A stretch of DNA of 43,688 nucleotides from a virus, in IMG/VR virus record IMGVR_UViG_3300037247_000735, positions 1-43,688 of that record; one strand, given 5' to 3'. A program made the translations under genes and the position numbers. Below, one piece after another: positions 25,242 to 40,205 of this stretch (position 1 is the stretch's first letter; the number at the start of each line of letters is the position of its first letter). The notes beneath the pieces were generated by a model. It was not told where the DNA came from and made no database searches. It worked only from the letters and a program-made list of their open reading frames with translations.

Positions 25242-26398
25242 TCTATCATTCACAGGAGTATGCCAAGACGCAGATCAAAGCCGACCCGAAGAAGGTCATG
25301 GAAATACCCGCCGCTTATAGTCGGAGGTTGGCCAAGATCGATACCTCTTGGATTGCAAAGGGCAAGGTCTATAAGACAGTGGAATTGAGGAACACTCGGA
25401 TGCAGTATGCTCAAAGGGATAAGATGTATTCTATCCAATGGCTCACAGAGGTATTCCCTAAAACAGTTATGAGGATCTTAGGTGGGGAGGTCATCACCAT
25501 AGAAGACTTTCGCAAGACCGGGTATTACCGCTACTTGGTCTCGAGGCTCAACCCCGCCGTCCAGACCGATATGGTTCCCAACCGCAAAGGGGAACGGCAT
25601 GTATGGAAGTTCTTTATTGACCTCCAAAATCTATGTAGAGATATTAGGGAGAAAGGTTTAAAAGCTCCGTTGGATATGTATATGGACGGGGGGCACCCCA
25701 TCCTTACCAGGGGATATAGAAGGCTTGAAATCCTCTATCAATTAGGAATAGAGACCATACCCGTAAGGATATGGAGAAACAAATGGATGGCAAGGCGCTT
25801 CATTCCCTCGGCGAAGTGGCCCGTAGCGGATAACACTATCCACGGTTGCGCCGTTAAGCAATTCTTGAAGAAGAATGACAGGGCAACGGATAAGTATTGG
25901 GTGCATGGTTATACCCCGTATTACGATAGGCATTTACAGGGTCGATTGGAAGAATCCCTCAAGGTCTTGGAATTGGGAGTGTTGAGGGGAGAGTCCTTGC
26001 AGTTATGGGCCTCCGCTCTCCCCAACGCTGAGATATATGGCATAGACCTGGAAGTGCGGATGAAGGACACGGACCGCATCAAGATCTTTCAGGGCGATGA
26101 GAAAGACTTGAGTTTCTTAGACCGGATAGGACGGGAATATGGCCCCTTCGATATGATAGTAGACGACGCACTCCATATACCAGATCCCCAGAAGAACGCT
26201 TTTAACGCTCTTTGGCCTCACGTCAACGAAGGGGGTTTATACGTGCTAGAAGATTACCATATCAACTATATGAAGAAGTATGAAAAGACCTCCGCCATGC
26301 CTACGTTCTTAGCCAAGGTAAAGGACATGATGACGGCCCCCCACGATGCCAAGGGGGTTTCCTTTTATCCTAATATCTGTTTTGTGGAGAAGGCATAA
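25238..26398 (+). CDS. ParB-like domain fused to MycE-like sugar O-methyltransferase
   Basis: A 386-aa fusion. Residues 125-180 resemble a ParB/sulfiredoxin-like fold ('YMDGGHPILTRGYRRLEIL' then IPVRIW). Residues 240-380 are a class I SAM methyltransferase: VLELGVLRGES (motif I), D270, GDEKD at 286-290, DDALH at 309-313 and YVLEDYH. The GDxxD, DDxxH and EDxH pattern resembles antibiotic-sugar O-methyltransferases such as MycE. I chose ATG at 25238, overlapping the transferase stop, instead of GTG at 25223. It is flanked by two glycosyltransferases, so the glycan is the likely substrate. The N-terminal domain's role is unknown. Confidence 0.8.
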   Translation: MIYHSQEYAKTQIKADPKKVMEIPAAYSRRLAKIDTSWIAKGKVYKTVELRNTRMQYAQRDKMYSIQWLTEVFPKTVMRILGGEVITIEDFRKTGYYRYLVSRLNPAVQTDMVPNRKGERHVWKFFIDLQNLCRDIREKGLKAPLDMYMDGGHPILTRGYRRLEILYQLGIETIPVRIWRNKWMARRFIPSAKWPVADNTIHGCAVKQFLKKNDRATDKYWVHGYTPYYDRHLQGRLEESLKVLELGVLRGESLQLWASALPNAEIYGIDLEVRMKDTDRIKIFQGDEKDLSFLDRIGREYGPFDMIVDDALHIPDPQKNAFNALWPHVNEGGLYVLEDYHINYMKKYEKTSAMPTFLAKVKDMMTAPHDAKGVSFYPNICFVEKA

Positions 26399-27168
26399 TG
26401 CTCTCGGTTGTAATCCCATCCTATAAGGATAAGTATCTGTACAACACCGTCCTTTCCATCCTCGATAACTTTACAGGGGAATTCGAGGTTATCCCTGTCT
26501 TCGATGGGTACGAACCGAAGACCCCCATTGTGTCGGACAGTAGAATTAGGCCCGTCTACCTCCAGGAGAATAAGGGTATGCGTGAAGCCATCAATGCGGG
26601 GATCGAAGCATCCAAGGGCGAACACATAATGCGTACCGATGAGCATTGTATGTTCGCGAAGGGCTTCGACGAGGCTATCCTTGAGGGTATGCAACCCAAC
26701 TGGATCGTAACGGCGGTAAGGTATTTCCTCGACCCCGAAAATTGGGCGGTGATGGACACCGAACCCATCTACTACGAGAAGCTAATCGTAAAGGAAAGCC
26801 CCAAAAAGTTTGCATCTCTGAGATGGACGGCGAGAACGCAGGAACGCCGGCACGTCATGCTTGACGAGAACATGGCTATGCAGGGGTCGATGTGGGTTAT
26901 GCCTCGTAGTTGGTGGGATGAAGTAATAGGTCGCCTTGATTCTGCCGGGTACGGAACTCACTACCAAGATACCATTGAGATGCTGTTCAAGACGTGGCGA
27001 GCCGGCGGGAAGTTGATGCTTAACAAAAACACTTGGTACGCGCACAAGCATCGGGGCTTCAAGAGGACTCACCACTACCCAACCAGAAAGGCTCTACCCG
27101 AATGGCAGTTTGCACTAGACCAATGGAAGGGTGACTACACTAAGGTAAGGCGGTTATGGGGGATGTGA
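26398..27168 (+). CDS. Second GT2-superfamily glycosyltransferase, DxH type
   Basis: A 256-aa transferase related to the 24369 gene. It starts SVVIPSYKD, carries 'NKGMREAINAGIEASKG' and the metal motif D-E-H at 81-83 followed by C, and ends with 'YQDTIEMLFKTWRAGGK' and 'WYAHKHRG'. The TAATG overlap couples it to the methyltransferase. Its sequence differs enough from the first enzyme that it may add a different sugar or extend the first one. Donor and acceptor cannot be read from sequence. Confidence 0.85.
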   Translation: MLSVVIPSYKDKYLYNTVLSILDNFTGEFEVIPVFDGYEPKTPIVSDSRIRPVYLQENKGMREAINAGIEASKGEHIMRTDEHCMFAKGFDEAILEGMQPNWIVTAVRYFLDPENWAVMDTEPIYYEKLIVKESPKKFASLRWTARTQERRHVMLDENMAMQGSMWVMPRSWWDEVIGRLDSAGYGTHYQDTIEMLFKTWRAGGKLMLNKNTWYAHKHRGFKRTHHYPTRKALPEWQFALDQWKGDYTKVRRLWGM

Positions 27169-27172
27169 TAGT

Positions 27173-27508
27173 ATGAAGATAGAAGTTGAAATCCCTGAGA
27201 TGGAGGAGGATGAACATAGGTGTATCCGCGTCATGTTCGGTATTGAGGAGCGCGCCAAGAAGTACCCCGGCAAGCCTTGGGAGGTCAAGGTCGTCCGATG
27301 TGATCTATGCGGCAAGTGTTGCATGAATGTGGTTGATGGCTGGAAATGGGACAAAGACCCCAAGACCGGCTGGTGTTCTCATTTGGTTTGGAACGAGGGA
27401 TGGAAGGGATATCTATGCGACTTCGGCAGGGCGCGTCCGTTTAGTTGTTCTACGGGGGACGAAGCGAATAAGGATTACTGCTGTATAGAGTGGCGTACCG
27501 TGGGGTGA
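27173..27508 (+). CDS. Cysteine-cluster protein, YkgJ-like metal-binding
   Basis: A 111-aa protein with C-x2-C-x2-CC (CDLCGKCC), followed by C-H, 'YLCDFGRARPFSCSTGD' and a terminal CC. The CxxCxxCC core resembles the YkgJ zinc/iron-chelating family. The role beside the glycosyltransferases is not evident; a metal-dependent modification of the same target is one possibility. It lies 4 bases from the preceding gene and 3 from the next. Confidence 0.72.
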   Translation: MKIEVEIPEMEEDEHRCIRVMFGIEERAKKYPGKPWEVKVVRCDLCGKCCMNVVDGWKWDKDPKTGWCSHLVWNEGWKGYLCDFGRARPFSCSTGDEANKDYCCIEWRTVG

Positions 27509-27511
27509 TAA

Positions 27512-28480
27512 ATGGCAGATTCAGACTTTGATTTAACCGGTAGTAGACTCCAAAATGCCATCCGCGTTAACCAGGCTACCGAGGACGCAGACATTACGGG
27601 TTGGCCCAAGGCAAACGACTTCATCGTCTGTGCGATGGTGGAGGCTCTTGGACATGGTGGCGCATCGAACACCCTTCAGCTCAGGTGGCGTAACGTTACC
27701 GATGGGGGTAGTTTTGTCGCGTTAAGCGGTAGTGGCGAACTTACTTGGAATGCCACCACAGATCTCGTAAACGGAAACGCGGTCGCTTCTGGGGAGGAGG
27801 TCTGCACGCCTATCTCTGGCACCACTAGAGTAGACGGTGTTGAGCGAGAAGGGGCTAATGATGTAGCAACAACCTTGGCTCAAAATGAATATACTGAGCA
27901 CCAATGGGCTATCGATGCTAGCGGTGGTCTGGACGGCAAGCAATATGAATTTGAGATATTTGATACTACAGCGGGAGCGACGCTTGGAACGGTCCTTGCA
28001 CAGATAACTACGCAGGCTGCCGCAAGTGCCTCAACCAGTCCGTCCGCTTCACCTTCGGCATCCCTTAGTGCAAGTCCGAGCGTCTCGCCAAGTGCCTCTG
28101 CATCGCCGTCCTCATCAACTTCAGCCTCGCCATCAGCCTCACCATCAGTATCGACGAGCCCAAGTTCTTCGTTAAGCGCAAGCTCTTCTGCATCACCTAG
28201 TGCAAGCCCGAGCGTGTCATCTTCGCCCAGTGCAAGCCCTTCAACAAGTCCTTCGACTTCACCATCCGCAAGTTCTTCGGCCTCGCCTTCTGCATCGCCG
28301 TCGGTCTCAGCCTCACCGAGCGTCGTTCTTGCTGAGGGCATCATCAATATTGATCAAATTTCAGGATCTCCCGTTTTAGGAGCCCCTGAGTCTGATATAG
28401 GTATGGTTTCCAGACGTAATGATCGTCGTGTTGTAGGCGCAGTAACACCTGGGATAGGGATTGTACGAAGACGCAAGTAA
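27512..28480 (+). CDS. Ser/Ala/Pro-rich mucin-like structural protein
   Basis: A 322-aa protein. The globular N-terminus (1-168) is beta-rich and contains Trp-rich strands. Residues 170-271 are an almost pure Ser/Ala/Pro/Thr repeat of SPSAS and SPSVS units. The C-terminal 50 residues end in a basic 'GIGIVRRRK' tail. Such tracts are flexible stalks or glycosylation targets. It ends the operon of glycosyltransferases and shares its repeat type with the 9494-9934 product. No enzyme motif is present. Confidence 0.8.
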   Translation: MADSDFDLTGSRLQNAIRVNQATEDADITGWPKANDFIVCAMVEALGHGGASNTLQLRWRNVTDGGSFVALSGSGELTWNATTDLVNGNAVASGEEVCTPISGTTRVDGVEREGANDVATTLAQNEYTEHQWAIDASGGLDGKQYEFEIFDTTAGATLGTVLAQITTQAAASASTSPSASPSASLSASPSVSPSASASPSSSTSASPSASPSVSTSPSSSLSASSSASPSASPSVSSSPSASPSTSPSTSPSASSSASPSASPSVSASPSVVLAEGIINIDQISGSPVLGAPESDIGMVSRRNDRRVVGAVTPGIGIVRRRK

Positions 28481-28522
28481 TGTGGGGGTTATAATTATTT
28501 TCATCTAAGGGCAAAATAATCC

Positions 28523-28551
28523 TTGACATCCTTCTGAGGATTGTGATTAGG
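28523..28551 (+). promoter_or_regulatory. Weak sigma-70-like promoter
   Basis: TTGACA at 28523-28528 is followed after 16-17 bp by a poor -10 (GATTAG or ATTAGG, within TGTGATTAGG). It would start transcription near 28557, just before the structured segment. The -35 is perfect but the -10 is weak, so activity is uncertain. Confidence 0.4.
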
Positions 28552-28554
28552 TGA

Positions 28555-28694
28555 GGTATCAAACGGCGAGGATACCTTATGAACACCTACCAAAAAACCA
28601 AAAATATGACCTTGAGACCGGGCACGGTGTCCTCGCCGACATTTGTCCACTCAGGCACAGGAGCCCCTGGGAGTTATCCTTCCAGGGGCTTTTA
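28555..28694 (+). ncRNA. Candidate structured small RNA ending in a terminator
   Basis: A 13-bp stem pairs 28564-28576 with 28626-28638 (one G-U). A 6-bp hairpin GGTATC/GATACC (28555-28560/28571-28576) overlaps its 5' side, so the two pairings are mutually exclusive. The apical loop is A-rich and single-stranded, and a terminator follows at 28662. No convincing gene occupies this 282-bp gap; the longest ORF crosses the terminator. A trans-acting RNA or an attenuator are both possible. Confidence 0.5.
28662..28693 (+). terminator. Intrinsic terminator after the Ser-rich gene
   Basis: AGCCCCTGG (28662-28670) pairs perfectly with CCAGGGGCT (28682-28690) across an 11-base loop, followed by TTT. 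It probably ends the late transcript. Copy B of the 53-bp repeat begins 8 bp later. Confidence 0.8.
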
Positions 28695-28700
28695 CGTGGG

Positions 28701-28753
28701 AGCCCGTCACGGCCCATATATAAAGGATTTAGCCCTATCCTAGACCCCCAAGG
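28701..28753 (-). repeat. 53-bp inverted repeat, copy B
   Basis: Exact reverse complement of 13756-13808. It lies between the terminator at 28662-28693 and the gene at 28763, ending 9 bp before its ATG. Like copy A it therefore follows a terminator and precedes a gene. Confidence 0.95.
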
Positions 28754-28762
28754 GAAGTGAAT

Positions 28763-29158
28763 ATGACCTACGGACTCTCCAAATGCAAGAACAAGCCCTG
28801 TGGGAAACCTTTTACTCGGAAAGCCTGGAACCACGAATACTGTTCTATCTCTTGCCAAAGAATAGTAGGGATACAAGCGTACCAGGATGGGGTGAAGAAG
28901 CGGAACTCTCGGGGTATGCACTTTAGCAAGCTCTCGGGTTCAGCATCCCTTCGACGGGTATATAATCTTTTGATCAACGGACCACGCACAACGAAACAGA
29001 TAGAACGGTTGGCAAACGTCAGCAATCCTGCTACATGGGTTTCTATGCTTCGCAAGAATGGAATCGATGCGTTGGATGCCGAGCATGTCAGAACGAACGC
29101 GGATGGAACGAAAGTATATCGATATGCGTTAGCGAACTCTCAGGGGGTTAAGGGATAA
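28763..29158 (+). CDS. Zinc-finger plus winged-helix DNA-binding protein
   Basis: A 131-aa protein. The N-terminus has four cysteines (C-x4-C, then C-x3-C in YCSISCQ), which may form a zinc finger. Residues 58-100 (LRRVYNLLINGPRTTKQIER) look like a winged helix, followed by a beta wing 'DGTKVYRYAL'. ATG at 28763 is favoured over the GTG at 28757 because AAGGGAAG lies at proper spacing. It could be a regulator at the late/early boundary. Confidence 0.72.
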   Translation: MTYGLSKCKNKPCGKPFTRKAWNHEYCSISCQRIVGIQAYQDGVKKRNSRGMHFSKLSGSASLRRVYNLLINGPRTTKQIERLANVSNPATWVSMLRKNGIDALDAEHVRTNADGTKVYRYALANSQGVKG

Positions 29159-29383
29159 ATGAATAAAGCAGACCGTGAGAGGGTGGAAGAGATACGAAAG
29201 ACTACATTACTGGGGTCTCCTTGTGGCTTTTGCATGGATATAAAAGGACTTTGTAATGGTCACTTCCTTCTCTCCATCATAGACAAACAGGACAAAGTGG
29301 TGGAAGCGGCAAAACGACATAGAGCGCGAAGCGTAGTAACAGAAGAAGCTATCCGGATTCTAGAAGAGGGGTGGATTGGGTAA
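29159..29383 (+). CDS. Hypothetical protein with CxxC
   Basis: A 74-aa helical protein starting directly after the previous stop. It contains C-x2-C (CGFC) and another Cys in 'GLCNGH', followed by a charged helix. It is a possible small zinc protein; no family recognised. Confidence 0.6.
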   Translation: MNKADRERVEEIRKTTLLGSPCGFCMDIKGLCNGHFLLSIIDKQDKVVEAAKRHRARSVVTEEAIRILEEGWIG

Positions 29384-29385
29384 AG

Positions 29386-29643
29386 ATGATAACCATCGAC
29401 CTCAAAGCCCTAGATGAACGCCAAGGTGTGATTCATGCTCGAGGTTCTATTGGGGGTTACTGGACGTTTGCTGTTGGTGGAATGAAAGAGGTCATTTATA
29501 AGATCAAGTGCCTCCATTATTGGGTCGCCTCTTTCGATGGGATATGGAAGCCCACGATCCCGGCGGGATGCGATTCAGGGAACGGTGTTGAGATCACGGT
29601 GTTAGTCAAGGAACGGCTTACCGAAGTATATGGAGAGGGATGA
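29386..29643 (+). CDS. Hypothetical protein
   Basis: An 85-aa beta-rich protein (from ATG at 29386; GTG at 29371 would add 5 residues) containing 'SFDGIWKPTIPAGCDSGNGV'. The end overlaps the methyltransferase start (ATGA). No family recognised. Confidence 0.6.
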   Translation: MITIDLKALDERQGVIHARGSIGGYWTFAVGGMKEVIYKIKCLHYWVASFDGIWKPTIPAGCDSGNGVEITVLVKERLTEVYGEG

Positions 29644-30311
29644 TTAAACCATATTACGAAACGGAGCTCGGGGTGCTATATCACGGGGATTGCAGAGAGG
29701 TTTTACCCGAGCTCGAGCATAATCTTGTAGATGCCGTGATTACAGACCCGATATGGCCCAATGCGTCAACCCAACTTATAGGGGCAGAAAACCCTTATGG
29801 TCTATTTCTCTCTGCAGTCAAGTTATTTCCATTAACGACAAAGCGTCTTGCTGTTCATCTTGGGTGCGATTCAGACCCACGTTTTCTGTCATCTGTGCCG
29901 GAAGCGTTGCCTTTTTTCCGTGTGTGTTGGCTTCGGTATGTACGACCGCACTACAAGGGAAGGTTAATGTACGGCTCTGATATAGCTTACTTCTTCGGTA
30001 GTCCTCCGAAATCGATAAAAGGACGGCGCGTTATATCGGGAGAATACACAGATACAAGTAACGATGGCAAGCAGGCAGAGCACCCGTGCCCCCGTAAACT
30101 GGGGCACGTTGATTGGATTATCGGACGTTGGACGGATGAGGGGGAAATTATCCTCGACCCCTTCCTCGGTTCCGGCACAACCGCCGTAGCTTGCGAAAGA
30201 TTAGAAAGGCGTTGGATAGGCATAGAGATATCAAAAGAGTTTTGCGATATAGCCGTCAAGCGTATCGAGGCGGAGAGGATGCAGTTGAAGTTCAATTTAA
30301 ACAAGGCATAG
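29640..30311 (+). CDS. DNA N4/N6-methyltransferase, DPIW variant
   Basis: A 223-aa methyltransferase of the N6-adenine/N4-cytosine type. The catalytic motif IV reads DPIW (36-39) in place of the usual D/N/S-PP-Y/F. The SAM-binding motif I is near the C-terminus (DPFLGSGTTA, D173), the permuted order of the beta class. It is shorter than restriction-associated enzymes, and no partner restriction enzyme is present, so protection of phage DNA is likely. The start overlaps the previous stop. Confidence 0.88.
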   Translation: MIKPYYETELGVLYHGDCREVLPELEHNLVDAVITDPIWPNASTQLIGAENPYGLFLSAVKLFPLTTKRLAVHLGCDSDPRFLSSVPEALPFFRVCWLRYVRPHYKGRLMYGSDIAYFFGSPPKSIKGRRVISGEYTDTSNDGKQAEHPCPRKLGHVDWIIGRWTDEGEIILDPFLGSGTTAVACERLERRWIGIEISKEFCDIAVKRIEAERMQLKFNLNKA

Positions 30312-30325
30312 CAAGGAGGTTCCCA

Positions 30326-30670
30326 ATGAACCGTCTCAAAAGACAGATTGAGAACACTGGCAAATGGCTCCTTAGTTGCCCTCGCACTATCATTCTTATC
30401 GTTGTTATTCTGATTGCTCTAATGATCGGGGCGGAAGGGGGGAGAAGGGCGGAGCGTCAGAAGATAGATATCGAAGCCATGAGGACCGAAACCGACCTGA
30501 ACCTGGACGTCAAGGGCTTGCGTATCAGGGAGGCCGTCTGCTTGAGGGCTTTCGAGGATAAGGCTGAGTACGAGTTTCATAAGAACCGGATGGTTCGGGA
30601 AGCCCTCGGCCTGGATAGGTTCTACGACTACGGGTCGGTTGAAGTAGCGAAGGGAGGGGGAGGTGGCTAA
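30326..30670 (+). CDS. Single-TM membrane protein
   Basis: A 114-aa protein with one transmembrane segment at about 21-38 (TIILIVVILIALMIG), then a charged helical region and a glycine-rich tail. AAGGAGGT (30313-30320) sets the ATG at 30326. Possible roles include superinfection exclusion or a host-membrane anchor; nothing specific is recognised. Confidence 0.7.
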   Translation: MNRLKRQIENTGKWLLSCPRTIILIVVILIALMIGAEGGRRAERQKIDIEAMRTETDLNLDVKGLRIREAVCLRAFEDKAEYEFHKNRMVREALGLDRFYDYGSVEVAKGGGGG

Positions 30671-30723
30671 GACTGCTTTAATACTTTCGGTGTAGGGCGG
30701 GTGCGAAGACCGTGCCGAACCCG

Positions 30724-30822
30724 ATGAATGCGACGGAGGATGAAAAAATCAACCCGTATCTTTTAACAGGTACTGAGCTTGACAGGGTGGTTGATGCTTC
30801 AAAGAGAGGAGCGAGGTTTTAA
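30724..30822 (+). CDS. Small ORF, 32 aa (uncertain)
   Basis: ATG at 30724 (or GTG at 30712) opens a 32-aa acidic-to-basic peptide ending RGARF. It fills part of the gap between 30670 and 30833 and ends directly before AAGGAGGT. Weak coding evidence. Confidence 0.35.
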   Translation: MNATEDEKINPYLLTGTELDRVVDASKRGARF

Positions 30823-30832
30823 GGAGGTGTTT

Positions 30833-31108
30833 ATGTTGAGAATATTTAAATATGTTTTTAACCCAGAACCCGACCCAGAAATTTTATTACCAGAAGGCGC
30901 TCAAATTTTGAGCGTCAAGGAACAAAACGAAGAGGTTGTTTTGTACGCGCTAGTAGACCCCGATAAACTTATTAATTGGAGGAAGTTCAAGATAATCGGG
31001 ACAGGGCATCCTATTATGGATGGCGATCTCGATGACTACGATTTTATTGATACGGTAAAATTACACAAGGGCAAACTTATGTTTCATGTTTTTAAGCACA
31101 GGGAATAG
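30833..31108 (+). CDS. Hypothetical protein
   Basis: A 91-aa protein with alternating strand and helix, containing 'ILLPEGAQILSVKEQNEEVV' and 'WRKFKIIGTGHPIMD'. AAGGAGGT (30821-30828) marks the ATG at 30833; an upstream ATG at 30779 has no such signal. It resembles small phage proteins of unknown function that bear a 'GxP..G' strand pattern. Confidence 0.7.
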   Translation: MLRIFKYVFNPEPDPEILLPEGAQILSVKEQNEEVVLYALVDPDKLINWRKFKIIGTGHPIMDGDLDDYDFIDTVKLHKGKLMFHVFKHRE

Positions 31109-31110
31109 CC

Positions 31111-31395
31111 ATGCAGACACACGACCAACGCTGTGAATACCAGAACACCAGAACCCGCGATATCAAGGCCGCTAACGAAGCCGCCAGGACTCCAAAGATA
31201 AGGGAGTTGCAGAGACGAGAGGCTGCACTTGACCGGAAGTGGCAATCGGCTAAAACACAAGAGGAGAGGGATAGGATAAGCGAACAACACGGGGAGGTTT
31301 GGGCTCTTTTACTTAAGATGGTTCAGCCCCTTGAGTTCAACGATGAGAAAGAGATTGCGGAGGATAGATATGCAGAAGTCGGAATCAATAGGTAA
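31111..31395 (+). CDS. Hypothetical helical protein
   Basis: A 94-aa Arg/Glu-rich, almost entirely helical protein (AANEAARTPKIRELQRREAA), probably a coiled coil. It begins two bases after the previous stop and overlaps the Erf gene by 26 bases. Confidence 0.65.
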   Translation: MQTHDQRCEYQNTRTRDIKAANEAARTPKIRELQRREAALDRKWQSAKTQEERDRISEQHGEVWALLLKMVQPLEFNDEKEIAEDRYAEVGINR

Positions 31396-31987
31396 GTTAG
31401 CAGAGGCTTTATCGAAGGCCCAAAAGAATATGGGTAAGGCGGTTAAGGATGCGGAGAATCCTTTCTTCCATCATAAGTACGCAGATCTCGCCTCAGTCTG
31501 GAAAGCGTGTAAAGACCACTTGACGGACAATGGGCTGGCGGTTGTTCAGACGAATGATATTATCGGAACCAACGAAACTGCTCTTGATAGTGTCGTTGTA
31601 GAAACCACGCTATTACATTCAAGTGGGGAATGGATTAGTGGACGGCTTGCAATAAAGCCGACGAAGAATGATCCCCAGGGTATCGGATCGGCTATTACAT
31701 ATGCCCGGAGGTATGCCCTTGCTGCGATGGTCGGGGTATGCCCGGAAGACGATGATGGAGAAGGGACAGTAGAAAGAAAAAAGACTTCTGCCGGCAAAAC
31801 CTCAAAGAAGAAGGCTACCGGGAAGACCACAAATTTTGAGTTTCTTTCGGTCATGGGAGACCAGAAGAAGCGAGTCGGCGAAGAGGCTTATTATAAAGTC
31901 CTCGGTGCTGCCGGGTACGAGAAGGCCGACGGTATTATGAACAGGGAGGATCAGAAGAAGGTCTTTGCGGAATTAATAGCACTTTGA
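31370..31987 (+). CDS. erf: Erf-family single-strand annealing recombinase
   Basis: A 205-aa protein. The N-terminal 130 residues ('KNPFFHHKYADLASVW'-type, here NPFFHHKYADLASVWKA; then 'DPQGIGSAITYARRYAL' and 'MVGVCPEDDDG') are the hallmark of the Erf family, which anneals complementary strands and can circularise or concatenate phage DNA. A Lys/Thr/Ser-rich linker leads to a small C-terminal helical domain. ATG at 31370 has GGAGG at ideal spacing. Confidence 0.92.
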   Translation: MQKSESIGKLAEALSKAQKNMGKAVKDAENPFFHHKYADLASVWKACKDHLTDNGLAVVQTNDIIGTNETALDSVVVETTLLHSSGEWISGRLAIKPTKNDPQGIGSAITYARRYALAAMVGVCPEDDDGEGTVERKKTSAGKTSKKKATGKTTNFEFLSVMGDQKKRVGEEAYYKVLGAAGYEKADGIMNREDQKKVFAELIAL

Positions 31988-32026
31988 AACCTGTAGCAAT
32001 CACCCTAAACCGAGGAGGTAAGTAAC

Positions 32027-32467
32027 GTGGACAAAAGCGTAGGAGTTATCGATAGGAAGTTTGTTTTTGCGGCGACTAATCCAGTCACCGGAAGGGTCGT
32101 CTGTGAGTTCGACGGAATGGTCTTTGTGGCGACGGATAAGGCTTTACCCGCCACACTGCAGTTTTACCGTGAGGAATGTATATCGCAGGGCGCCGCCCCT
32201 GAAGTGATCGAGAGCCTTAACGGTCTATACGCACGGGTAGTGAGTTTCCAGGCCGCTAATCCCGATATCTGCAAGGTCGCTGACCTTAGCCCGGAGGAGG
32301 TCAAGGCTATGGGGATACAGTCACCCGGACCCGCACCGGCTACAACCGGGGCCAAGGCAGGGTCAGAACCGGGACCGACCGACGCCCAGGGTCAGGATGA
32401 ACCGGCACCGGTCGGCGATCCAGGTGAAGGCGGGTTGACGCCGAAGTCGGATCCGGTAGGGATCTAA
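32027..32467 (+). CDS. Hypothetical protein
   Basis: A 146-aa protein starting at GTG after GAGGAGGT. The first 100 residues are alpha/beta (FVFAATNPVTGRVVCEFDGM), while residues 100-146 are low complexity and rich in Pro, Gly, Ala and acidic residues. It sits next to erf, so it may be a small accessory of DNA metabolism such as an SSB-like partner; that is inference. Confidence 0.65.
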   Translation: MDKSVGVIDRKFVFAATNPVTGRVVCEFDGMVFVATDKALPATLQFYREECISQGAAPEVIESLNGLYARVVSFQAANPDICKVADLSPEEVKAMGIQSPGPAPATTGAKAGSEPGPTDAQGQDEPAPVGDPGEGGLTPKSDPVGI

Positions 32468-32468
32468 C

Positions 32469-32618
32469 GCCTACCTGTCTGCTGATGGGGCGCACAGGTA
32501 GGCAAGTTGGGCTATGCCATATAGGATGGGTCGGTGGGCCTTAACCGGGTCATAAAAGAGCTCGTGGAAATACGCCGATACCCCGTATCGTTAAGGCTCT
32601 GTGGGGACATATAGCCCA
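32469..32618 (+). ncRNA. Candidate structured RNA, four helices
   Basis: No gene fits this 170-bp gap. Pairings seen by eye: a 10-bp perfect hairpin (32469-32478/32494-32503, 15-base loop without a U-run); an outer 8-bp stem TGGGCTAT/ATAGCCCA (32508-32515/32611-32618); inside it a 7-bp stem GCCTTAA/TTAAGGC (32538-32544/32591-32597); and stacked on that a hairpin CGATAC/GTATCG (32576-32581/32585-32590). The nested arrangement suggests a conserved RNA. Riboswitch, antisense regulator and replication-linked RNA are all open options. Confidence 0.55.
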
Positions 32619-32637
32619 TTAATTAAGGAAAAAGAAA

Positions 32638-32772
32638 ATGCCTGTTTTAACAGCAAAGTGTGTTGAATGTGGAGAGAAGAGAGACATACAGGCCGGCGAG
32701 GTTGATGCCGGCGACATGCCGATGTGCAACAAGTGCGGTGGCGTAATGATAGCGGATTCGGCTAGGGCTTAA
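32638..32772 (+). CDS. Small zinc-ribbon protein
   Basis: A 44-aa protein with two CxxC pairs (CVEC and CNKC) separated by 18 residues, typical of a zinc ribbon. An AAGGA site precedes the ATG. It is the first of several tiny cysteine-rich proteins in this phage. Confidence 0.7.
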   Translation: MPVLTAKCVECGEKRDIQAGEVDAGDMPMCNKCGGVMIADSARA

Positions 32773-32791
32773 CCCGCTTAAGGAGAAGAGA

Positions 32792-32998
32792 ATGGCAAGA
32801 AGAACATTGTTAAGAAAGGTTTTGTGCCGCCGGGGTTGTGGTCGCACCGTTCACACGCTCAAGAAAAGTATCTACGGAGCCAATGCCTTACATGGTAAGT
32901 ATAGCGGCATTTGCTCTAACTGCACGACAGACGAGGAAAGAAACGAGATTCTAAGGGGCGTAACAGAGGCTGCATACAGAACTTGTGTTCGGGGCTGA
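32792..32998 (+). CDS. Small zinc-finger protein
   Basis: A 68-aa basic protein with a C-x3-C pair (CRRGC) near residue 12 and a C-x2-C pair (CSNC) at about 41, fitting a zinc finger. AAGGAG precedes the ATG. Likely nucleic-acid or protein binding. Confidence 0.68.
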   Translation: MARRTLLRKVLCRRGCGRTVHTLKKSIYGANALHGKYSGICSNCTTDEERNEILRGVTEAAYRTCVRG

Positions 32999-33001
32999 CC
33001 G

Positions 33002-33172
33002 ATGGCTAAGACGAAGATAGAGTGGGCCGATGCGGTCTGGAACCCTGTAACCGGGTGTACGAAGGTCAGCGCTGGGTGTGCCAACTGCTACGCCGAGAGA
33101 ATGAGCAAGCGGCTCAGGGGGCGGTTCGGGTACCCGAAGGACGACCCCTTCCGCACAGGGGGGGCGGCATGA
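33002..33172 (+). pseudogene. Truncated DUF5131 (Gp37/Gp68-like) protein
   Basis: A 56-aa ORF matching only the N-terminus of DUF5131 proteins: [20 protein letters not shown], then 'CANCYAERM' and 'GYPKDDPF'. Complete members run to about 230-300 aa and carry the C...C..CY cluster seen here. The reading frame ends just after a run of 7 G and the rest of the domain is absent; the next gene starts within its stop. It is a remnant, or a minimal protein keeping the cysteine cluster. Confidence 0.72.
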
Positions 33173-33345
33173 GCGATGGCACAAGGACGATGCCCTTCGG
33201 CAAGCATAAGGGCAAGACCATCGAGGAACTTCCGTCCGGCTATCTACGGTGGATGAGGGACAACATGGATGACGATGACTTAGTGGATGCCGCCGACGAC
33301 GAACTTCAATTCAGGGATATCCATAACACGCATTTTGAGGACTGA
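33169..33345 (+). CDS. DUF3820-like small protein
   Basis: A 58-aa protein with '[19 protein letters not shown]' followed by RWM and an acidic tail. This signature defines DUF3820-type proteins, which occur in phages and bacteria and are linked to nucleic-acid metabolism without a proven role. ATG at 33169 overlaps the preceding stop. Confidence 0.78.
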
Positions 33346-33348
33346 GGC

Positions 33349-34008
33349 ATGAAGGAACACCCGATAATATTCAACGGCCCGATGGTGAGGGCTATCCTTG
33401 AGGGGAGGAAGACGCAGACCCGACGGGTAATGAAGCCACAAGTTAGTAAAAATGCTATTTTCGCAGATTATAAAACTGACTTGGGCTACCCGGCAAGCAA
33501 GGGACAATTTTGGGCGGGATTTTATCTTGGAAAGGAAAGTATTGATCCCGGCTATTTCAAGTGTTCTTACGGAGCCCCCGGTGACCGGCTTTGGGTGAGA
33601 GAGACACATAGATTTACCTTAGCGGGAAAACCGAAACCTCCCGGCTATGTTGACCTTATAGAGTACAAGGCTGATGGTTTTATAGGAGAGATAGAAAGCG
33701 GCTTGGCAAAAGATGTTTCTTTTCGTTGGAGACCCTCAATCCATATGCCTCGGTCGGCCTCCCGTATCCTCCTTGAAGTAACCGACGTTCGGGTGGAGAG
33801 GGTGCAGGAGATAACGGCAGAAGATACATTATTTGAAGGGATCGAACTGCCTATGCCATCTGGTTGTGATATTCCAGGACCGCCGCAAGGATATGAAGAA
33901 TGGCCCGAAGCTAAACAGAATGAATGGGTGGAAGGACAGGCAAGAGCTACATATTTTGCTCGTTGTGCTGACTTGCAAAACCACATTGATGCTTTTAAGG
34001 AACTTTAG
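33349..34008 (+). CDS. ASCH-superfamily-like protein with premature amber stop
   Basis: A 219-aa protein with 'GPMVRAILEGRKTQTRRV', 'GAPGDRLWVRET' and RPSIHMPRSASRI, the three conserved blocks of phage ASCH-like proteins, which may bind RNA or modified nucleosides. The frame stops with TAG at 34006-34008 after FKEL, where relatives have Trp. Beyond it the same frame stays open for 27 codons (WDVNPWVWVV and FKRI, the usual ending), to TGA at 34090-34092 overlapping the next ATG. A TGG-to-TAG change is the simplest explanation. Confidence 0.82.
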   Translation: MKEHPIIFNGPMVRAILEGRKTQTRRVMKPQVSKNAIFADYKTDLGYPASKGQFWAGFYLGKESIDPGYFKCSYGAPGDRLWVRETHRFTLAGKPKPPGYVDLIEYKADGFIGEIESGLAKDVSFRWRPSIHMPRSASRILLEVTDVRVERVQEITAEDTLFEGIELPMPSGCDIPGPPQGYEEWPEAKQNEWVEGQARATYFARCADLQNHIDAFKEL

Positions 34009-34088
34009 AACTCCATCAACACTAAAAGAGGCTTTGGGTGGGACGTGAACCCTTGGGTATGGGTCGTCACCTTTAAGCGAATAGAAAC

Positions 34089-35441
34089 ATGATATACGGC
34101 TCGGTCTGTAGCGGCATAGAAGCGGCGACGGTCGCTTGGAAGTCCCTCGGGTGGAAGGCCGCCTGGTTCAGCGAGATAGAACCCTTCCCGAGCGCCGTAT
34201 TGGAGCACCACTACCCCGACGTGCAGAATCTCGGGGACATGACAAGGATATACGAAAATGAAAAATTCAAAAGAACAGTTATCGATCTTCTCGTCGGAGG
34301 AACTCCGTGCCAATCCTTCAGCGTTGCAGGATTCCGAAAGGGCATGGAAGATCCACGTGGAAACTTGGCCCTCGTCTATCTTTCTATTGTTGACCGAACA
34401 CGCCCCAAGTGGGTGGTTTGGGAAAACGTCCCCGGCGCACTATCTAGCGTATCGCACGATGCTCCCGATCCATGTCCACCGCCAGACCCTATGGACGTGG
34501 AGCTCGACGGACAGGAAGTGGATACTAACGATGACTACCATTCAGAAGAAGTACATGCCCTCAACTGCTTCCTGGCCACACTTTCAGAACTCGGGTATGG
34601 GTGGGCCTACAGAGTTCTTGACGCTCAATACTGCGGAGTACCACAGCGGCGCCGTCGCATCTTCGTTATCGGATATCTTGGAGATTGGCGACGTGCCACG
34701 TCGGTACTTTTTGAGCGCGAGAGCCTGTCAAGGTATTCTCCGCCGAGCAGAGAAGAGGGGAAAGGACTTGCCCCCACAGTTACGGGCGGCCCTCCTTTCA
34801 GTCGCACGGGGAACGAAAGGGTAGAAGCAGAAGCGATGGTGGCACATATGCGAGGTTTCGGTGATTACGAGATAGATGATAAGGCTTCGGCCTTAAAAAG
34901 CAGAGACCATAAAGATGCTACTGATTTAATAACGGTAGCCGTCCGCACCGCGCAGACCTCGGCGAATGGTTGCGGGGTAAGCGAGGATGTGGCGCATACG
35001 CTGGACGGGGCGCTGGGACAGGCGGTGGCTTTTCAATCCAAAGCCTCATCAACCAACAGCATGAACCCCTCGGAGATTACACCCACGCTTGACAAGGGGA
35101 AGGGGGACGGGGTGGTGGTAGCCAGCTTCAAGGCCGGTCAAGGTGCGAAGGCGGGGAGTATAGGCTATGAAGAAGAGGTCGCCCCGACCCTTGGAGCAGC
35201 TGATAGTGGAAGTAACCGTACCCCAGCGTTAATGTCCGGCATGACCGTCCGCCGCCTCACCCCCCGGGAGTGCGAACGGCTCCAGGGCTTCCCAGACAAC
35301 TATACGAGGATACCGCGGAACCATAAGAAGGCCGCTGATTGTCCCGATGGACCACGCTACAAGGCGCTTGGCAACTCGATGGCCGTGCCTGTGATGCAGT
35401 GGATAGGGCAGAGGATTCAAGAAGTGGAAAACGGGCAATGA
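34089..35441 (+). CDS. DNA C5-cytosine methyltransferase
   Basis: A 450-aa enzyme making 5-methylcytosine. Motif I is GSVCSGIEAA (4-13); the catalytic Cys is C74 in GGTPCQSFSVAG; ENVPG lies at 112-116; QRRRRIF lies near 186; and the C-terminal motifs are TPRECERLQGFP and ALGNSMAVPV. The region between about 200 and 380 is the target-recognition domain and is longer than usual and low in recognisable features. Its ATG overlaps the read-through end of the ASCH gene, indicating former coupling. No restriction enzyme is nearby. Confidence 0.95.
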   Translation: MIYGSVCSGIEAATVAWKSLGWKAAWFSEIEPFPSAVLEHHYPDVQNLGDMTRIYENEKFKRTVIDLLVGGTPCQSFSVAGFRKGMEDPRGNLALVYLSIVDRTRPKWVVWENVPGALSSVSHDAPDPCPPPDPMDVELDGQEVDTNDDYHSEEVHALNCFLATLSELGYGWAYRVLDAQYCGVPQRRRRIFVIGYLGDWRRATSVLFERESLSRYSPPSREEGKGLAPTVTGGPPFSRTGNERVEAEAMVAHMRGFGDYEIDDKASALKSRDHKDATDLITVAVRTAQTSANGCGVSEDVAHTLDGALGQAVAFQSKASSTNSMNPSEITPTLDKGKGDGVVVASFKAGQGAKAGSIGYEEEVAPTLGAADSGSNRTPALMSGMTVRRLTPRECERLQGFPDNYTRIPRNHKKAADCPDGPRYKALGNSMAVPVMQWIGQRIQEVENGQ

Positions 35442-35472
35442 TTTACCAAATGGATGGATAAGGAGGACAAGG

Positions 35473-35622
35473 ATGGAATGTGACGATTGCGGAGCCGAAT
35501 TTAAAATCGGTCATACAGTATATGAGTACACCTCCGGGATTTTCGACGGAGAAATGGTTATCGCAGATGAATGTTTTGAAAAATGGTGCAAGGTCTGTGA
35601 TGACAAGCGGGGTGAACGGTGA
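35473..35622 (+). CDS. Small zinc-binding protein
   Basis: A 49-aa protein with CDDC at the N-terminus and C-x6-C-x2-C near the C-terminus, a treble-clef or zinc-ribbon pattern. AGGAGG precedes the ATG, and the stop overlaps the next gene (GTGATA). Confidence 0.65.
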   Translation: MECDDCGAEFKIGHTVYEYTSGIFDGEMVIADECFEKWCKVCDDKRGER

Positions 35623-36290
35623 TAAGCCAAGGGGATTTTCTTGAATATCTTACCGGCCTCGATCCCGAATCCGTGGATTGTATTATCACAGACCCGCCCT
35701 ACTGGACACTTGATAAGTGGCGAGCGATAGGCACTACAACGCGGCTTGGGGGCCACAAGGACGAGGACAAAAGAGATGAGGCTCGGTGGTTCCCAACGAT
35801 TGATGCAAATGACCTTTGGGAACTTATGAATGAGATATGGCGTGTTCTCAAGAACAACACCCACGCATATATTTTTTGCGACCACGAAACCCTTAGATAT
35901 GTTTTGTCTTATGGGGACGATATGGACTGGCGAAAAGTCAAGCCTCTTGTGTGGGACAAGGTGAATCAAGGGATGGGCTATACCTATCGTTGTCGGTATG
36001 AGTTTATCGTCTTTCTCGAAAAGGGCAAGCGCAAGCTCAATGACCTTTCTATTCCCGACATTCTGACAGTAAAGAAAATTATAAATGGCTATCCTACCGA
36101 AAAGCCAGTCAAGTTGATGGAGATATTTGTACGCCAAAGCACAGGCGAAGGAGAGCTTGTTTGCGATCCCTTCTTCGGGAGCGGGAGCGTTGCTATTGCC
36201 TGTCAAAATCTTAATCGGCAATTTATGGGTTGCGATATAAGCCCAAGGGCGCATGAACATCTTAAAAATAGACAGGGGTTATTTGCTTAA
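35619..36290 (+). CDS. DNA adenine/N4-cytosine methyltransferase (DPPY type)
   Basis: A 223-aa methyltransferase starting at GTG. Motif IV is the canonical DPPY at 25-28 and motif I is DPFFGSGSVA near residue 183, the beta-class permuted order. 'GYPTEKPVKLMEIFVRQST' is the usual motif X region. Lack of a restriction partner suggests anti-restriction or regulatory methylation. It is separate in sequence from the DPIW enzyme at 29640. Confidence 0.92.
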   Translation: MISQGDFLEYLTGLDPESVDCIITDPPYWTLDKWRAIGTTTRLGGHKDEDKRDEARWFPTIDANDLWELMNEIWRVLKNNTHAYIFCDHETLRYVLSYGDDMDWRKVKPLVWDKVNQGMGYTYRCRYEFIVFLEKGKRKLNDLSIPDILTVKKIINGYPTEKPVKLMEIFVRQSTGEGELVCDPFFGSGSVAIACQNLNRQFMGCDISPRAHEHLKNRQGLFA

Positions 36291-36370
36291 ATTCAGGGAC
36301 TCCAAGAACTCGGCCCCCTTTCCTAGCGCGGTGGTGGTATTTAAATAAATCAACCGCTTACAGACCAACT

Positions 36371-36402
36371 TTACTAGTAAATTACTAGTAAATTACTAGT
36401 AA
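36371..36402 (+). promoter_or_regulatory. Three palindromic operator/iteron sites
   Basis: TTACTAGTAA, a perfect 10-bp palindrome, occurs three times at 36371-36380, 36382-36391 and 36393-36402, an 11-bp period (one helical turn). They lie 18 bp before the GTG of the ATPase gene, in an AT-rich 130-bp gap that also holds ATTTAAAT. Such arrays bind dimeric regulators cooperatively or act as iterons. Confidence 0.85.
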
Positions 36403-36420
36403 TTTGAATGGAGGTAATGA

Positions 36421-38133
36421 GTGAAGCGCTTACAGATCGCCAAGGACCTGTCTTTACCGATTGACGCCGTAACCCAGACCTTTGCTATCCTCGCTATCCG
36501 GGGCGCCGGTAAGACCAATACGGCCGTCGTCATGGTCGAGGAACTTCTTAAGAACGGCCTTCAAGTGGTCGTGGTGGACCCCGTAGGAGTCTGGTGGGGT
36601 CTACGGTCGTCGGCGGACGGCAAGAGCGCGGGGCAGCCTATAGTGATCTTCGGGGGCGAGCACGGGGACGTGCCGCTTGAGCATACCGGCGGGAAGTTGG
36701 TGTCCGACTTGGTAGTAAACAAAGGAGTGTCCGTACTTCTCGATCTCTCGGGCTTCCGCAAGGGGGAGCAAGTGAGGTTTATGACCGACTTTACAGAGCA
36801 TTTGTACTACCTGAAGGGTAAGAATCGAGACCCCTTGCATATCGTATTCGATGAGGCTGATGAGTTTGCCCCGCAGAGGCCCCAAAGGGGGCGTGAGAGG
36901 CTCTTGGGGGCCATAGAGGACTTGGTGAGGCGGGGGAGGGCTCGTGGCATAGGCACGACCCTCATAACGCAGAGATCGGCGGTGCTCAATAAGAACGTGC
37001 TGACTCAGGCGGAGGTTCTTGTGGCGCTTCGCACGTTGGGCCCCCAAGACAGGAAGGCCATTGACGCTTGGGTGGAGGCCCACGGGACACCAGAGGAGCG
37101 CAAGACGCTCATGGGCTCGCTCGCGTCCCTTGAAATAGGCGAGGCGTGGGTATGGTCCCCAGGTTGGCTCGACGTATTCAAGAGGGTGCAGATACGTCGG
37201 CGCGAGACCTTCGATAGTTCGGCCACGCCATCGGTGATGAAAAAGGTTAAGGGCCCTAAGAAGTTCGCGGACGTAAACATGGCGGAAATACGCGAACTGA
37301 TGGCCTCTACCATCGAAAAGGCCAAAGCTGACGATCCCCGGGAACTCAAGAAGAAGGTAGCGGATCTTGAGAGAACGCTGAAAAAGGTAGAGGCGACGGG
37401 GCCGAAGGTTGAGATTAAGGAAATGCCGGTCCTTACCAGTAAGAACGAAAGAGACATAGAGAACACCATCCTTGGCCTAGAGAACCAAACTAGGGTACTT
37501 AAGGAAATATTAGAATGTAGTGCCATTCGTCAAAATGACCTTAAGACTCTTCTCAAAGAGGTACAAGCCGCCCATTGTAGCCCACGAAATCCCATGAAAT
37601 CCCATGAAATCCCAGCAAAGCCCATATACCCTCACAGTTCTCTCGTTATAGCTGGGAAGGGTGAGAGCATGTCGAAATGCGAAAGGGCCATTCTCTCCGT
37701 TCTCGCGCAGTACCAGGGCGGCCGAAATCGATCGCAGGTGTCCATACTCAGCGGCTACTCTGTTAAAAGCGGCAGCTTCAGTAATTCCCTCAGTACCCTC
37801 AGAACAAGAGGATGGATTATCGGCGGCCGCGAGAATATGCAGATCACGGAGGAAGGTGTAACCGCCCTAGGTTCTTACGAACCGTTACCGATAGGGCACG
37901 ATCTTCTACAATACTGGCTATCCAGCAAGTCTTTAGGAAAGTGTGAAAGGGAAGTGTTGAAGGTTCTTGCTGAGGTATACCCAGATGCCTTAACTAAGCC
38001 CGGAACGGCTGACCGCTCGGGTTACAGCGTAACCAGTGGTAGCTTTGCCAATGCCCTGAGCAAGCTACGGACCCTTGAACTTATCAACGGCCGCGAGAAT
38101 ATAAAAGCATCAGACGTGTTTTTTGAGGGGTAA
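36421..38133 (+). CDS. HerA/FtsK-like ATPase with two C-terminal winged helices
   Basis: A 570-aa protein. Walker A is IRGAGKTN (26-33), Walker B is FDEAD (143-147), and 'RGRARGIGTTLITQR' is typical of HerA/DUF87 motors. A coiled coil (about 285-390) leads to two related winged-helix repeats (about 418-480 and 505-565), both containing SGYSVxSGSFxNxLSxLR. It may be a hexameric DNA translocase that binds DNA through the winged helices, and it may bind the palindromes upstream. GTG at 36421 has GGAGG at 36410. No nuclease partner (NurA) was seen. Confidence 0.85.
   Translation: MKRLQIAKDLSLPIDAVTQTFAILAIRGAGKTNTAVVMVEELLKNGLQVVVVDPVGVWWGLRSSADGKSAGQPIVIFGGEHGDVPLEHTGGKLVSDLVVNKGVSVLLDLSGFRKGEQVRFMTDFTEHLYYLKGKNRDPLHIVFDEADEFAPQRPQRGRERLLGAIEDLVRRGRARGIGTTLITQRSAVLNKNVLTQAEVLVALRTLGPQDRKAIDAWVEAHGTPEERKTLMGSLASLEIGEAWVWSPGWLDVFKRVQIRRRETFDSSATPSVMKKVKGPKKFADVNMAEIRELMASTIEKAKADDPRELKKKVADLERTLKKVEATGPKVEIKEMPVLTSKNERDIENTILGLENQTRVLKEILECSAIRQNDLKTLLKEVQAAHCSPRNPMKSHEIPAKPIYPHSSLVIAGKGESMSKCERAILSVLAQYQGGRNRSQVSILSGYSVKSGSFSNSLSTLRTRGWIIGGRENMQITEEGVTALGSYEPLPIGHDLLQYWLSSKSLGKCEREVLKVLAEVYPDALTKPGTADRSGYSVTSGSFANALSKLRTLELINGRENIKASDVFFEG
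37586..37615 (+). repeat. Tandem 10-bp repeat inside the ATPase gene
   Basis: GAAATCCCAT is repeated three times (last copy ends G). The period of 10 is not a multiple of three, so gain or loss of one unit would shift the frame just before the winged-helix domains. It encodes the linker 'NPMKSHEIPAK'. Confidence 0.8.
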
Positions 38134-38141
38134 AAACTTTC

Positions 38142-38169
38142 TTGACTCTCTCAAGAATTATGGTAGTGT
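38142..38169 (+). promoter_or_regulatory. Sigma-70-like promoter (moderate)
   Basis: TTGACT at 38142-38147 and TAGTGT at 38164-38169 with a 16-bp spacer. Transcription would start near 38176, upstream of the 13-bp stem and the replication gene. Confidence 0.45.
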
Positions 38170-38187
38170 GAGTATATGGAAGGTTCT

Positions 38188-38295
38188 ATGATGAGAATAA
38201 CCTACAAATCTATTCAGCGCAGCGCTCCTTGGACGTCCGTTATCGGACACGGGCTCATCACCGTCCTTCCAGGTCTGGGGAGCGCTGCGCTTTAA
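38188..38295 (+). CDS. Possible 35-aa leader peptide (uncertain)
   Basis: ATG at 38188 after GGAAGGTTCT opens a 35-aa frame that ends 7 bases before the replication gene. Its sequence (VIGHGLITVLPGLGSAAL) is hydrophobic toward the end. It entirely overlaps the strong stem structure, so the coding potential may be accidental. Confidence 0.35.
   Translation: MMRITYKSIQRSAPWTSVIGHGLITVLPGLGSAAL
38216..38291 (+). ncRNA. 76-nt stem with branched loop (candidate RNA or attenuator)
   Basis: A perfect 13-bp stem joins 38216-38228 and 38279-38291. The enclosed 50 bases can form GTCCG-TTAT-CGGAC (38235-38248) and ACGG/CCGT (38249-38264), a branched shape. Only TTT AA follows, so it is a poor terminator. 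It precedes the replication gene by 11 bp and could mask its ribosome site or be a separate RNA. Confidence 0.5.
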
Positions 38296-38302
38296 GGTTA
38301 CG

Positions 38303-39160
38303 ATGTCAAACAGGGTAATTAAAGATTCGATTTGGTCATCGCCGACCCTAGCGAAGTTACCGTTATTACCTCAACTCCATTGGCCACGGTGGTTGCTTAT
38401 GGCGGATGATTGGGGGTGCTTTAATGCTGACCCTGATATAATACAGGGATTGGTCTATTCAAAAATGAAGAGCATGACCATAAAAAAGATACAAGACCTT
38501 ATGGATGAATATGTAAAAGGTGGTCTCCTATTTCTTTGGAAAGAAGGGGAGCGGATTTGGGGATATTTTGTCTCTTGGGACTCTCATCATAATTACTGCA
38601 ATAAGACGAACCTCGATAATGACGGCAAACACCAAAAACACCGCCGAAAGACCCCAGAACCGCCGATGGAAGCGTTATCTCAATATTTACGGGAGGTTAG
38701 TGATAGCTTGGAACATCTTAGTACGCCTTCGGACAAAATCCTTAGTCCTAGTCTGAATCCTAAACCTATACATAAACCCCTTGTCGGGAAGTTTGAAAAT
38801 ATATGGAATAGATACCCCCTTAAAGACGGCAAAAAAAGCGCTGAACGCCACTTCAAGGCAACCGTCAAGACCCAAGAGGATTGGGAGGCGATAAACAGGG
38901 CCCTTGATAATTATATAAAACACCTTGAGGCTACCTCCTGGAAGCAACCCAAGAACGGATCAACCTGGTTTAATAACTGGCCTGATTGGGTTGAGTGGAA
39001 CGAGCCGGGCATCGATGAGTTTAAAATCTGTACTGCCAAGAGCCCGGCCCCGAAGGACGAAAAGGGGTGGCGACATCCCGACGTAAAAGAGGTAAGGAAT
39101 AAAACAACAGGGATTAGGGCGCAACGCTGCCTATATTGCAAAACGATTTTTTATAAGTAG
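38303..39160 (+). CDS. Replisome organizer-like protein
   Basis: A 285-aa protein. The N-terminal domain ('PRWLLMADDWGCFNADPDII' followed by 'QGLVYSKM') matches the winged-helix region of phage replication proteins that recruit the host helicase. A Pro/Ser linker at about 125-155 leads to a helical C-terminal domain (KFENIWNRYPLKDGKKSAER) commonly fused to it, and a CxxC pair at the end. Initiation at a phage origin with host polymerase is likely. ATG at 38303 has AAGG upstream. Confidence 0.78.
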   Translation: MSNRVIKDSIWSSPTLAKLPLLPQLHWPRWLLMADDWGCFNADPDIIQGLVYSKMKSMTIKKIQDLMDEYVKGGLLFLWKEGERIWGYFVSWDSHHNYCNKTNLDNDGKHQKHRRKTPEPPMEALSQYLREVSDSLEHLSTPSDKILSPSLNPKPIHKPLVGKFENIWNRYPLKDGKKSAERHFKATVKTQEDWEAINRALDNYIKHLEATSWKQPKNGSTWFNNWPDWVEWNEPGIDEFKICTAKSPAPKDEKGWRHPDVKEVRNKTTGIRAQRCLYCKTIFYK

Positions 39161-39184
39161 ACGTACTCAATGGGAGAGGGAAAT

Positions 39185-39382
39185 ATGAACTTAAAGAGAG
39201 ATGAATGGTATTGGTTTGAGGATAAGGAAACAGGCAAGTTGAGTGAACACGGTAGGTATCGAGATATGGATGGAAACCTACAGTTCGCCAGACTCAGACT
39301 TTTCGCCGCTAAGAAAGAAGCTACGTCGTTATGCGCCTCTAGCGAACAGGTTGTTAAAATTAAGATAGTCAAGGTGAAGTAG
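39185..39382 (+). CDS. Hypothetical protein
   Basis: A 65-aa basic beta-rich protein. ATG at 39185 follows GAGAGGG; an ATG at 39170 would add MGEGN. No family recognised. Confidence 0.6.
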   Translation: MNLKRDEWYWFEDKETGKLSEHGRYRDMDGNLQFARLRLFAAKKEATSLCASSEQVVKIKIVKVK

Positions 39383-39391
39383 GAGAGAGAT

Positions 39392-39694
39392 ATGAGAAAA
39401 GAGGTTAGAGTTTTTGCTAATGAAATGGAAAGAGTGTTGAAACTCAACGATTACAAAGAGCATTGGAGTAGTTATAGCGAAGAATATTTAATAGGACGCT
39501 TAAAAAAGGAAGTTGCTGAACTTGAAAGGGCACTCTCCGACAGGTGTGAAAATAAAGATTGTAATGGGATTGTATATATAAATATGAGGAAGGTAAGCGG
39601 TGAATGTCGGTATAGAGTTGTTCAGGAAGCTGCTGATGTTGCGAGCTTTGCGATGATGATAGCAGATCTTAATATTCCAAAGGCAAAGCCATGA
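39392..39694 (+). CDS. MazG-like nucleotide pyrophosphohydrolase (putative)
   Basis: A 100-aa helical protein with 'FANEMERVLKLNDYKEHW', then 'EEYLIGRLKKEVAELERAL' and 'QEAADVASFAMMIAD'. The ExxE...EAADVA arrangement is the metal-binding core of all-alpha NTP pyrophosphatases. It may remove unusual or excess dNTPs during infection. Overlaps the next gene (ATGA). Confidence 0.8.
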   Translation: MRKEVRVFANEMERVLKLNDYKEHWSSYSEEYLIGRLKKEVAELERALSDRCENKDCNGIVYINMRKVSGECRYRVVQEAADVASFAMMIADLNIPKAKP

Positions 39695-40113
39695 GTGAAG
39701 AACTGAAAGCGTTGACCGACACCGAGATAAGTAAGATATGCCTCTCCCTGATAACGGGTGGGAAGGGGTGTTGGCATGAACCAGAATTAGCTTATCTTGC
39801 TGTTTATGAACCACTAAGTACATACCGATGTAAGGTAGCGAGTTGTAAATATTATGGTAGTGAAAATGGTGTTTTTAGGAGAAGGTTAACTAACCCCGAC
39901 TACCTCAACAACAAGTCCGATGCCTATGACCTCATACATTTCGTTGTTAATGAGTGGGAGGGAGAGAAGTGGGATAAATTTTTATTATGGTATTTGACTA
40001 GATGGGGGAAAATTACTCCGCAATGCATACCATCTTCATATAGAGGGTTGAAAAAATTACTCTCAAATACGAGAGCCTTACCGGAGGCGTTGGCGAGTTG
40101 GAAGGAGGGGTGA
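39691..40113 (+). CDS. Phage ABA-sandwich-domain protein
   Basis: A 140-aa protein with NPDYLNNKSDAYDLIHFVVN and 'ALPEALASW' at the end, the conserved blocks of the phage ABA-sandwich family found beside replication genes. Function is unknown. A cysteine pair lies at about residues 47-52. Confidence 0.72.
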   Translation: MSEELKALTDTEISKICLSLITGGKGCWHEPELAYLAVYEPLSTYRCKVASCKYYGSENGVFRRRLTNPDYLNNKSDAYDLIHFVVNEWEGEKWDKFLLWYLTRWGKITPQCIPSSYRGLKKLLSNTRALPEALASWKEG

Positions 40114-40135
40114 ATGATGGGGATAAAGATTTCTC

Positions 40136-40164
40136 TTGACATTCATAAGCGGTTATGATATAAT
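40136..40164 (+). promoter_or_regulatory. Perfect consensus sigma-70 promoter
   Basis: TTGACA at 40136-40141 and TATAAT at 40159-40164 with exactly 17 bp between them. Predicted start of transcription is near 40171. It would drive the small-gene operon 40206-43642 with host RNA polymerase as an early promoter. A TTATTATAAT stretch follows. Confidence 0.88.
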
Positions 40165-40205
40165 CTTATTATAATGGAGTTGAAATCATAGCTGCGGAGA
40201 AGAAG

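Follow-up and report, generated by a model that had tools for sequence, protein, structure and literature searches.

An ordinary stable hairpin and chance-level downstream pairing in a gene gap of a 43.7-kb virus record

A gap downstream of erf and the hairpins it resembles

REP elements are repeated sequences, and hairpins of this type stabilise mRNA in bacterial and phage operons. In phage T7, RNase III sites occur in intercistronic gaps. Intrinsic (Rho-independent) terminators place a run of U immediately after a G+C-rich hairpin. We compared these systems with a structured gap in a 43,688-base virus record; the window analysed is the entire record, which may itself be a fragment. The + strand carries the likely genes, including both neighbours of the gap. 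The gap, its neighbours and the four helices (H1 to H4) that drew attention to it are as follows.

31391-31987, + strand: erf, encoding an Erf-like ssDNA annealing protein; precedes the 146-aa ORF and lies about 0.5 kb upstream of the gap
32027-32467, + strand: 146-aa gene, an orphan, next after erf; TAA stop at 32465-32467
32468-32637: the gap, 170 bases between the 146-aa gene and the 44-aa ORF
32469-32478 with 32494-32503, + strand: H1, a hairpin of 10 perfect bp with a 15-base loop, starting 2 bases past the TAA
32508-32515 with 32611-32618, + strand: H2, an outer helix of 8 bp enclosing H3 and H4
32538-32544 with 32591-32597, + strand: H3, an inner helix of 7 bp
32576-32581 with 32585-32590, + strand: H4, an apical hairpin of 6 bp with a 3-base loop, stacked on H3
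32625-32629, + strand: AAGGA, the Shine-Dalgarno-like element of the 44-aa ORF, predicted unpaired
32638-32772, + strand: 44-aa ORF, zinc-ribbon-like, below Pfam cut-offs

The initial annotation placed the helices in a gap without a gene, and this is supported by the absence of any ORF of at least 60 aa in 32468-32637. A 26-aa GTG ORF inside the gap (32534-32614) was rejected as coding: it has no phage match, and its codon-usage score of -0.02 is that of background (gene pieces averaged 0.22, antisense stretches -0.03). For the 146-aa ORF, Pfam and PHROGs give no family.

H1 shares with REP-type palindromes an extragenic position just 3' of a stop codon, flanking genes on the same strand and the lack of a U-run. 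Unlike them, its stem pattern occurs at one place only in the record, without the repetition that marks REP elements. The gap likewise resembles the T7 RNase III sites in being structured and lying between same-strand phage genes; H1 differs from those in its shorter duplex. As a stable hairpin placed at a gene's 3' end, H1 also recalls an intrinsic terminator. However, the sequence directly 3' of H1 is AAGTTGGG, which is not a U-run, and the terminator scan was empty in the gap, so that the earlier statement that this is not a terminator stands.

The gap was also compared with catalogued RNA families, as the initial annotation had proposed. Rfam/Infernal returned no match at gathering scores anywhere in the record, and in the gap livK (- strand) came closest, scoring 27.1 bits where the threshold is 65. 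ARAGORN found no tRNA or tmRNA in the record, and a covariance model of the gap matched only itself there.

Pairing in the gap relative to shuffled sequence

All four helices are present in the gap as the perfect Watson-Crick pairs originally described; an eighth pair in H3 would require base 32590, which H4 already occupies. Their predicted occupancy differs. Across six sequence contexts the mean pairing probability was 1.0 throughout for H1, which gains 4 weaker pairs beyond its 10 bp in the computed fold, and 0.69-0.72 for H4. H2 depended on context (0.32-0.94), and H3 was a minority pairing (0.26-0.46) that is missing from the computed best fold. Forcing all four helices gave -63.5 kcal/mol against -65.6 for the best fold, a cost of 2.1 kcal/mol.

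Fold stability separated H1 from the remainder of the gap. With its edges (32465-32510), H1 reached a z of -4.12, and none of 500 shuffles was equally stable; the remainder, 32504-32637, had a z of -0.97 and was equalled by 76 of 500 (z -0.96 with the alternative cut 32508-32619). For the gap as a whole z was -2.53, with 4 of 300 shuffles equally stable. On the + strand, 32469-32618 gave -2.42, a value equal to or above that of 28 of the 581 tiled windows. The claim of more order than in random DNA is thus borne out for H1 and not for the nested part. Perfect hairpins of at least 10 bp with loops of 3-20 bases occur at three places in the record (8 counts, including overlapping variants), whereas 20 shuffles gave a mean count of 0.55. 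Gene gaps account for two of these places (32469-32503 and 36370-36405).

Summed helix length at first appears to favour the whole set. Perfect helices of at least 6 bp add up to 31 bp, a sum reached by none of 4000 local shuffles and the single highest among the 43,539 windows of the record. When the search across the record was included, however, 11 of 32 whole-window shuffles held a 156-base window with at least 31 bp (shuffled in 1-kb blocks and read every 6 bases, a scheme that slightly favours the shuffles); therefore, the helix sum fails correction for the search. Taken by itself, the nested part (32508-32618, 21 bp) was matched by 1 of the 2000 shuffles made from this stretch, a count that favours the initial annotation and is weakened by the ends of the stretch being set by the helix itself. 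At least 21 helix bp are present in 9 of the 581 tiled windows, including the one at the element. Had gene gaps been fixed beforehand as the only places to look, the search correction would be far milder, and a weak case for the entire helix set therefore remains.

Nine gene gaps were folded, eight with ends taken from automatic tiling and one (28481-28756) with its end set by hand. Four had a z of -2.5 or lower, among which the gap studied here is the weakest; in a coding control, 2 of 60 windows were at -2 or lower.

13678-13857: gap, fold z -2.63
28481-28756: gap, fold z -3.78
32468-32637: gap studied here, fold z -2.53
38134-38302: gap, fold z -4.65

We conclude that the gap contains one ordinary stable hairpin together with pairing that, after correction for the search, is no greater than expected by chance. 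With fold energy, summed helices and pairing probabilities taken together, H1 is firm and the nested architecture of H2-H4 is not. The nested multi-helix RNA first proposed was not supported as a coherent whole: its nested part folds no better than shuffled sequence, H3 is a minority pairing, and no Rfam family is matched at threshold. The locus serves as a calibration case, in which a helix set that convinces by eye and is the best in 43.7 kb is equalled by about a third of scrambles.

We searched for homologous gaps in sequence collections and in loci fetched through relatives of erf, the terminase, a 219-aa protein and the capsid; no homologous gap, and no relative that keeps the neighbours of the gap, was found among these. 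Gap DNA matched the phage collection only over 19-34 bases (E 2-8) and matched none of 11 records of fetched relatives. The stem pattern of H1 had no match in viral_contigs, and a single match to the pattern of the H3 arms was rejected: it falls within a long reading frame of contig L022, which is unrelated and shows no similarity to the record. The phage collection contained no relatives of the 146-aa, 44-aa and 68-aa neighbours, viral_contigs contained none of the 146-aa and 68-aa neighbours, and a scan of genome_contigs with erf yielded no relative. The nearest portal relatives in the phage collection are those of phages such as Shewanella phage SppYZU01 (63.9%).

Of the 58 fetched loci, 47 were searched with the proteins and the covariance model, which amounts to a single-sequence model because the two sequences behind it are identical copies. 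The 146-aa protein matched one locus, in a bacterial genome, at E 0.08; the 44-aa protein matched none. Covariance-model matches in two of the 47 loci, which are near-identical contigs, were rejected as lying antisense inside a 193-aa reading frame. A match in L031 is a GGTGGGTTA-type repeat, and one in L034 is weak (E 2.2). When 32000-33100 was compared with phages, the matches in the best 20 of 127 records lay at a DUF5131 fragment. At 33002-33345, only about the first 45 residues of a DUF5131 protein (profile positions 1-45 of 243) are encoded, and an ORF with a QSregVF_b match comes directly after them; the arrangement suggests gene truncation at a mosaic junction.

Readings of H1 and of the downstream pairing

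We tentatively favour, as the leading candidate, a reading in which H1 is an intercistronic hairpin of an ordinary kind, carried by a polycistronic phage mRNA, and H2-H4 are incidental pairing. The computed stability and position of H1, the missing U-run and the predicted free Shine-Dalgarno are the observations behind it. The consensus scan found no promoter-like site on the + strand in 31061-34239 and no terminator-like site in 32468-32637; this, together with the same-strand genes, suggests that transcription reads through the gap and that H1 lies inside a polycistronic message. The gap sits within a run of same-strand phage genes, which would be co-transcribed; H1 would stay folded in the message and either block 3'-to-5' exonucleases or form part of a processing boundary. 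The erf-146 message upstream and the message downstream could thereby decay, or be expressed, separately. From its position and stability, H1 may protect the upstream message or mark its boundary. The H1 duplex is short compared with a typical RNase III site, which counts against this reading. The nested helices H2-H4 probably reflect incidental pairing within the spacer. Directly 3' of the stop of the 146-aa gene, H1 would then be the one real RNA element of the gap, and an element of a common kind.

Chance alone would account for everything if neither H1 nor the nested helices were functional, since a scan of 43.7 kb for its best helix set always yields one. The frequency of equal or better sets in whole-window shuffles, the tiled windows of equal or lower fold z, and those with as many helix bp as the nested part all agree with this. 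We nevertheless consider it unlikely, though the most serious of the alternatives: H1 by itself was equalled by none of 500 shuffles, and the best helix set of the record falls in a gap, even though gaps make up a few per cent of the sequence.

It is improbable that the gap acts in cis as a switch for translation of the 44-aa gene. In such a switch CCUUAA, in the 5' arm of H3, would pair either with GUUAAGGC to form H3, leaving the ribosome site free, or with the Shine-Dalgarno sequence UUAAGG (32623-32628). The 6-mer complement is found once in 32469-32618 (position 32539), any such 6-mer occurs in 94 of 2000 shuffles, and the fold that contains H3 lies just 2.1 kcal/mol above the best one, so a switch on the downstream Shine-Dalgarno is weakly hinted at. 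However, the best fold leaves that sequence free. Blocking it costs 6.9 kcal/mol (-58.7 for the blocked state, -65.6 for the best fold) and makes a pseudoknot unless H2 breaks; H3 is moreover a minority pairing, and the complement was spotted post hoc. The pairing probability of AAGGA was 0.01-0.07 in the context 32465-32660 and up to 0.33 in 32465-32700; because the Shine-Dalgarno is predicted to be free, H2-H4 in their computed fold leave translation unblocked. We give a small chance to the gap being a real regulatory leader. Its fullest form, a phage-specific switch between H3 and anti-Shine-Dalgarno pairing that controls the small zinc-ribbon protein while H1 insulates it from the upstream gene, is very unlikely. 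Were the switch real, a new regulated leader would have been found within a phage recombination block.

A DNA-level element of the replication or recombination block near erf, such as a protein binding site, a cruciform or a single-strand start site, is also very unlikely. Inverted repeats are present equally in DNA, and because they are symmetrical a DNA-level role for H1 is also conceivable, with erf 0.5 kb upstream; yet GC skew keeps its sign here, and 32468-32637 has no iteron-like copies, in contrast to the TTACTAGTAA copies in the gap 36291-36420. Least probable of all is a separate small structured RNA (an sRNA or a riboswitch-like family outside Rfam), which would suit a gene-free gap with several helices, but for which there is no consensus promoter or terminator, no Rfam match in the gap above sub-threshold level, no nested structure above that of shuffles and no relative among the sequences searched.

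Other elements in the record

Several further elements were noted. In the gap 36291-36420, before a 570-aa ATPase-like gene, about three tandem copies of TTACTAGTAA (36365-36405) resemble operator or iteron sites. The gene gaps on either side of the tail block each contain one arm of a 53-base inverted repeat (13756-13808 and 28701-28753); the arms are 100% complementary and separated by 14,892 bases. This repeat may mark an invertible segment, represent a duplicated control element or result from a fold-back in assembly. The gap after the tail block, 28481-28756, holds several hairpins, one of which (AGCCCCTGGGAG...CAGGGGCTTTT) is followed by TTTT, and is probably a terminator region.

The strongest gap structure found, at 38134-38302, was equalled by none of 300 shuffles and consists of a long stem (GCGCAGCGCTCC.../...GGAGCGCTGCGC) around a smaller hairpin; an AdoCbl riboswitch match there scores 27.6 bits, far short of the threshold of 50. 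The stretch 12896-13042, for which neither ARAGORN nor Rfam makes a call, has the ends GCGGTATG...CATACCGC, the second preceded by a T-arm-like GTGGGTCCGAATCCAC, and recalls a tRNA or tmRNA whose two ends are separated by an insert. A perfect 12/12 sigma-70 promoter-like site (TTGACA-17-TATAAT with an extended -10) lies at 40136-40164, the sole such site in 22000-41900 by consensus scan.
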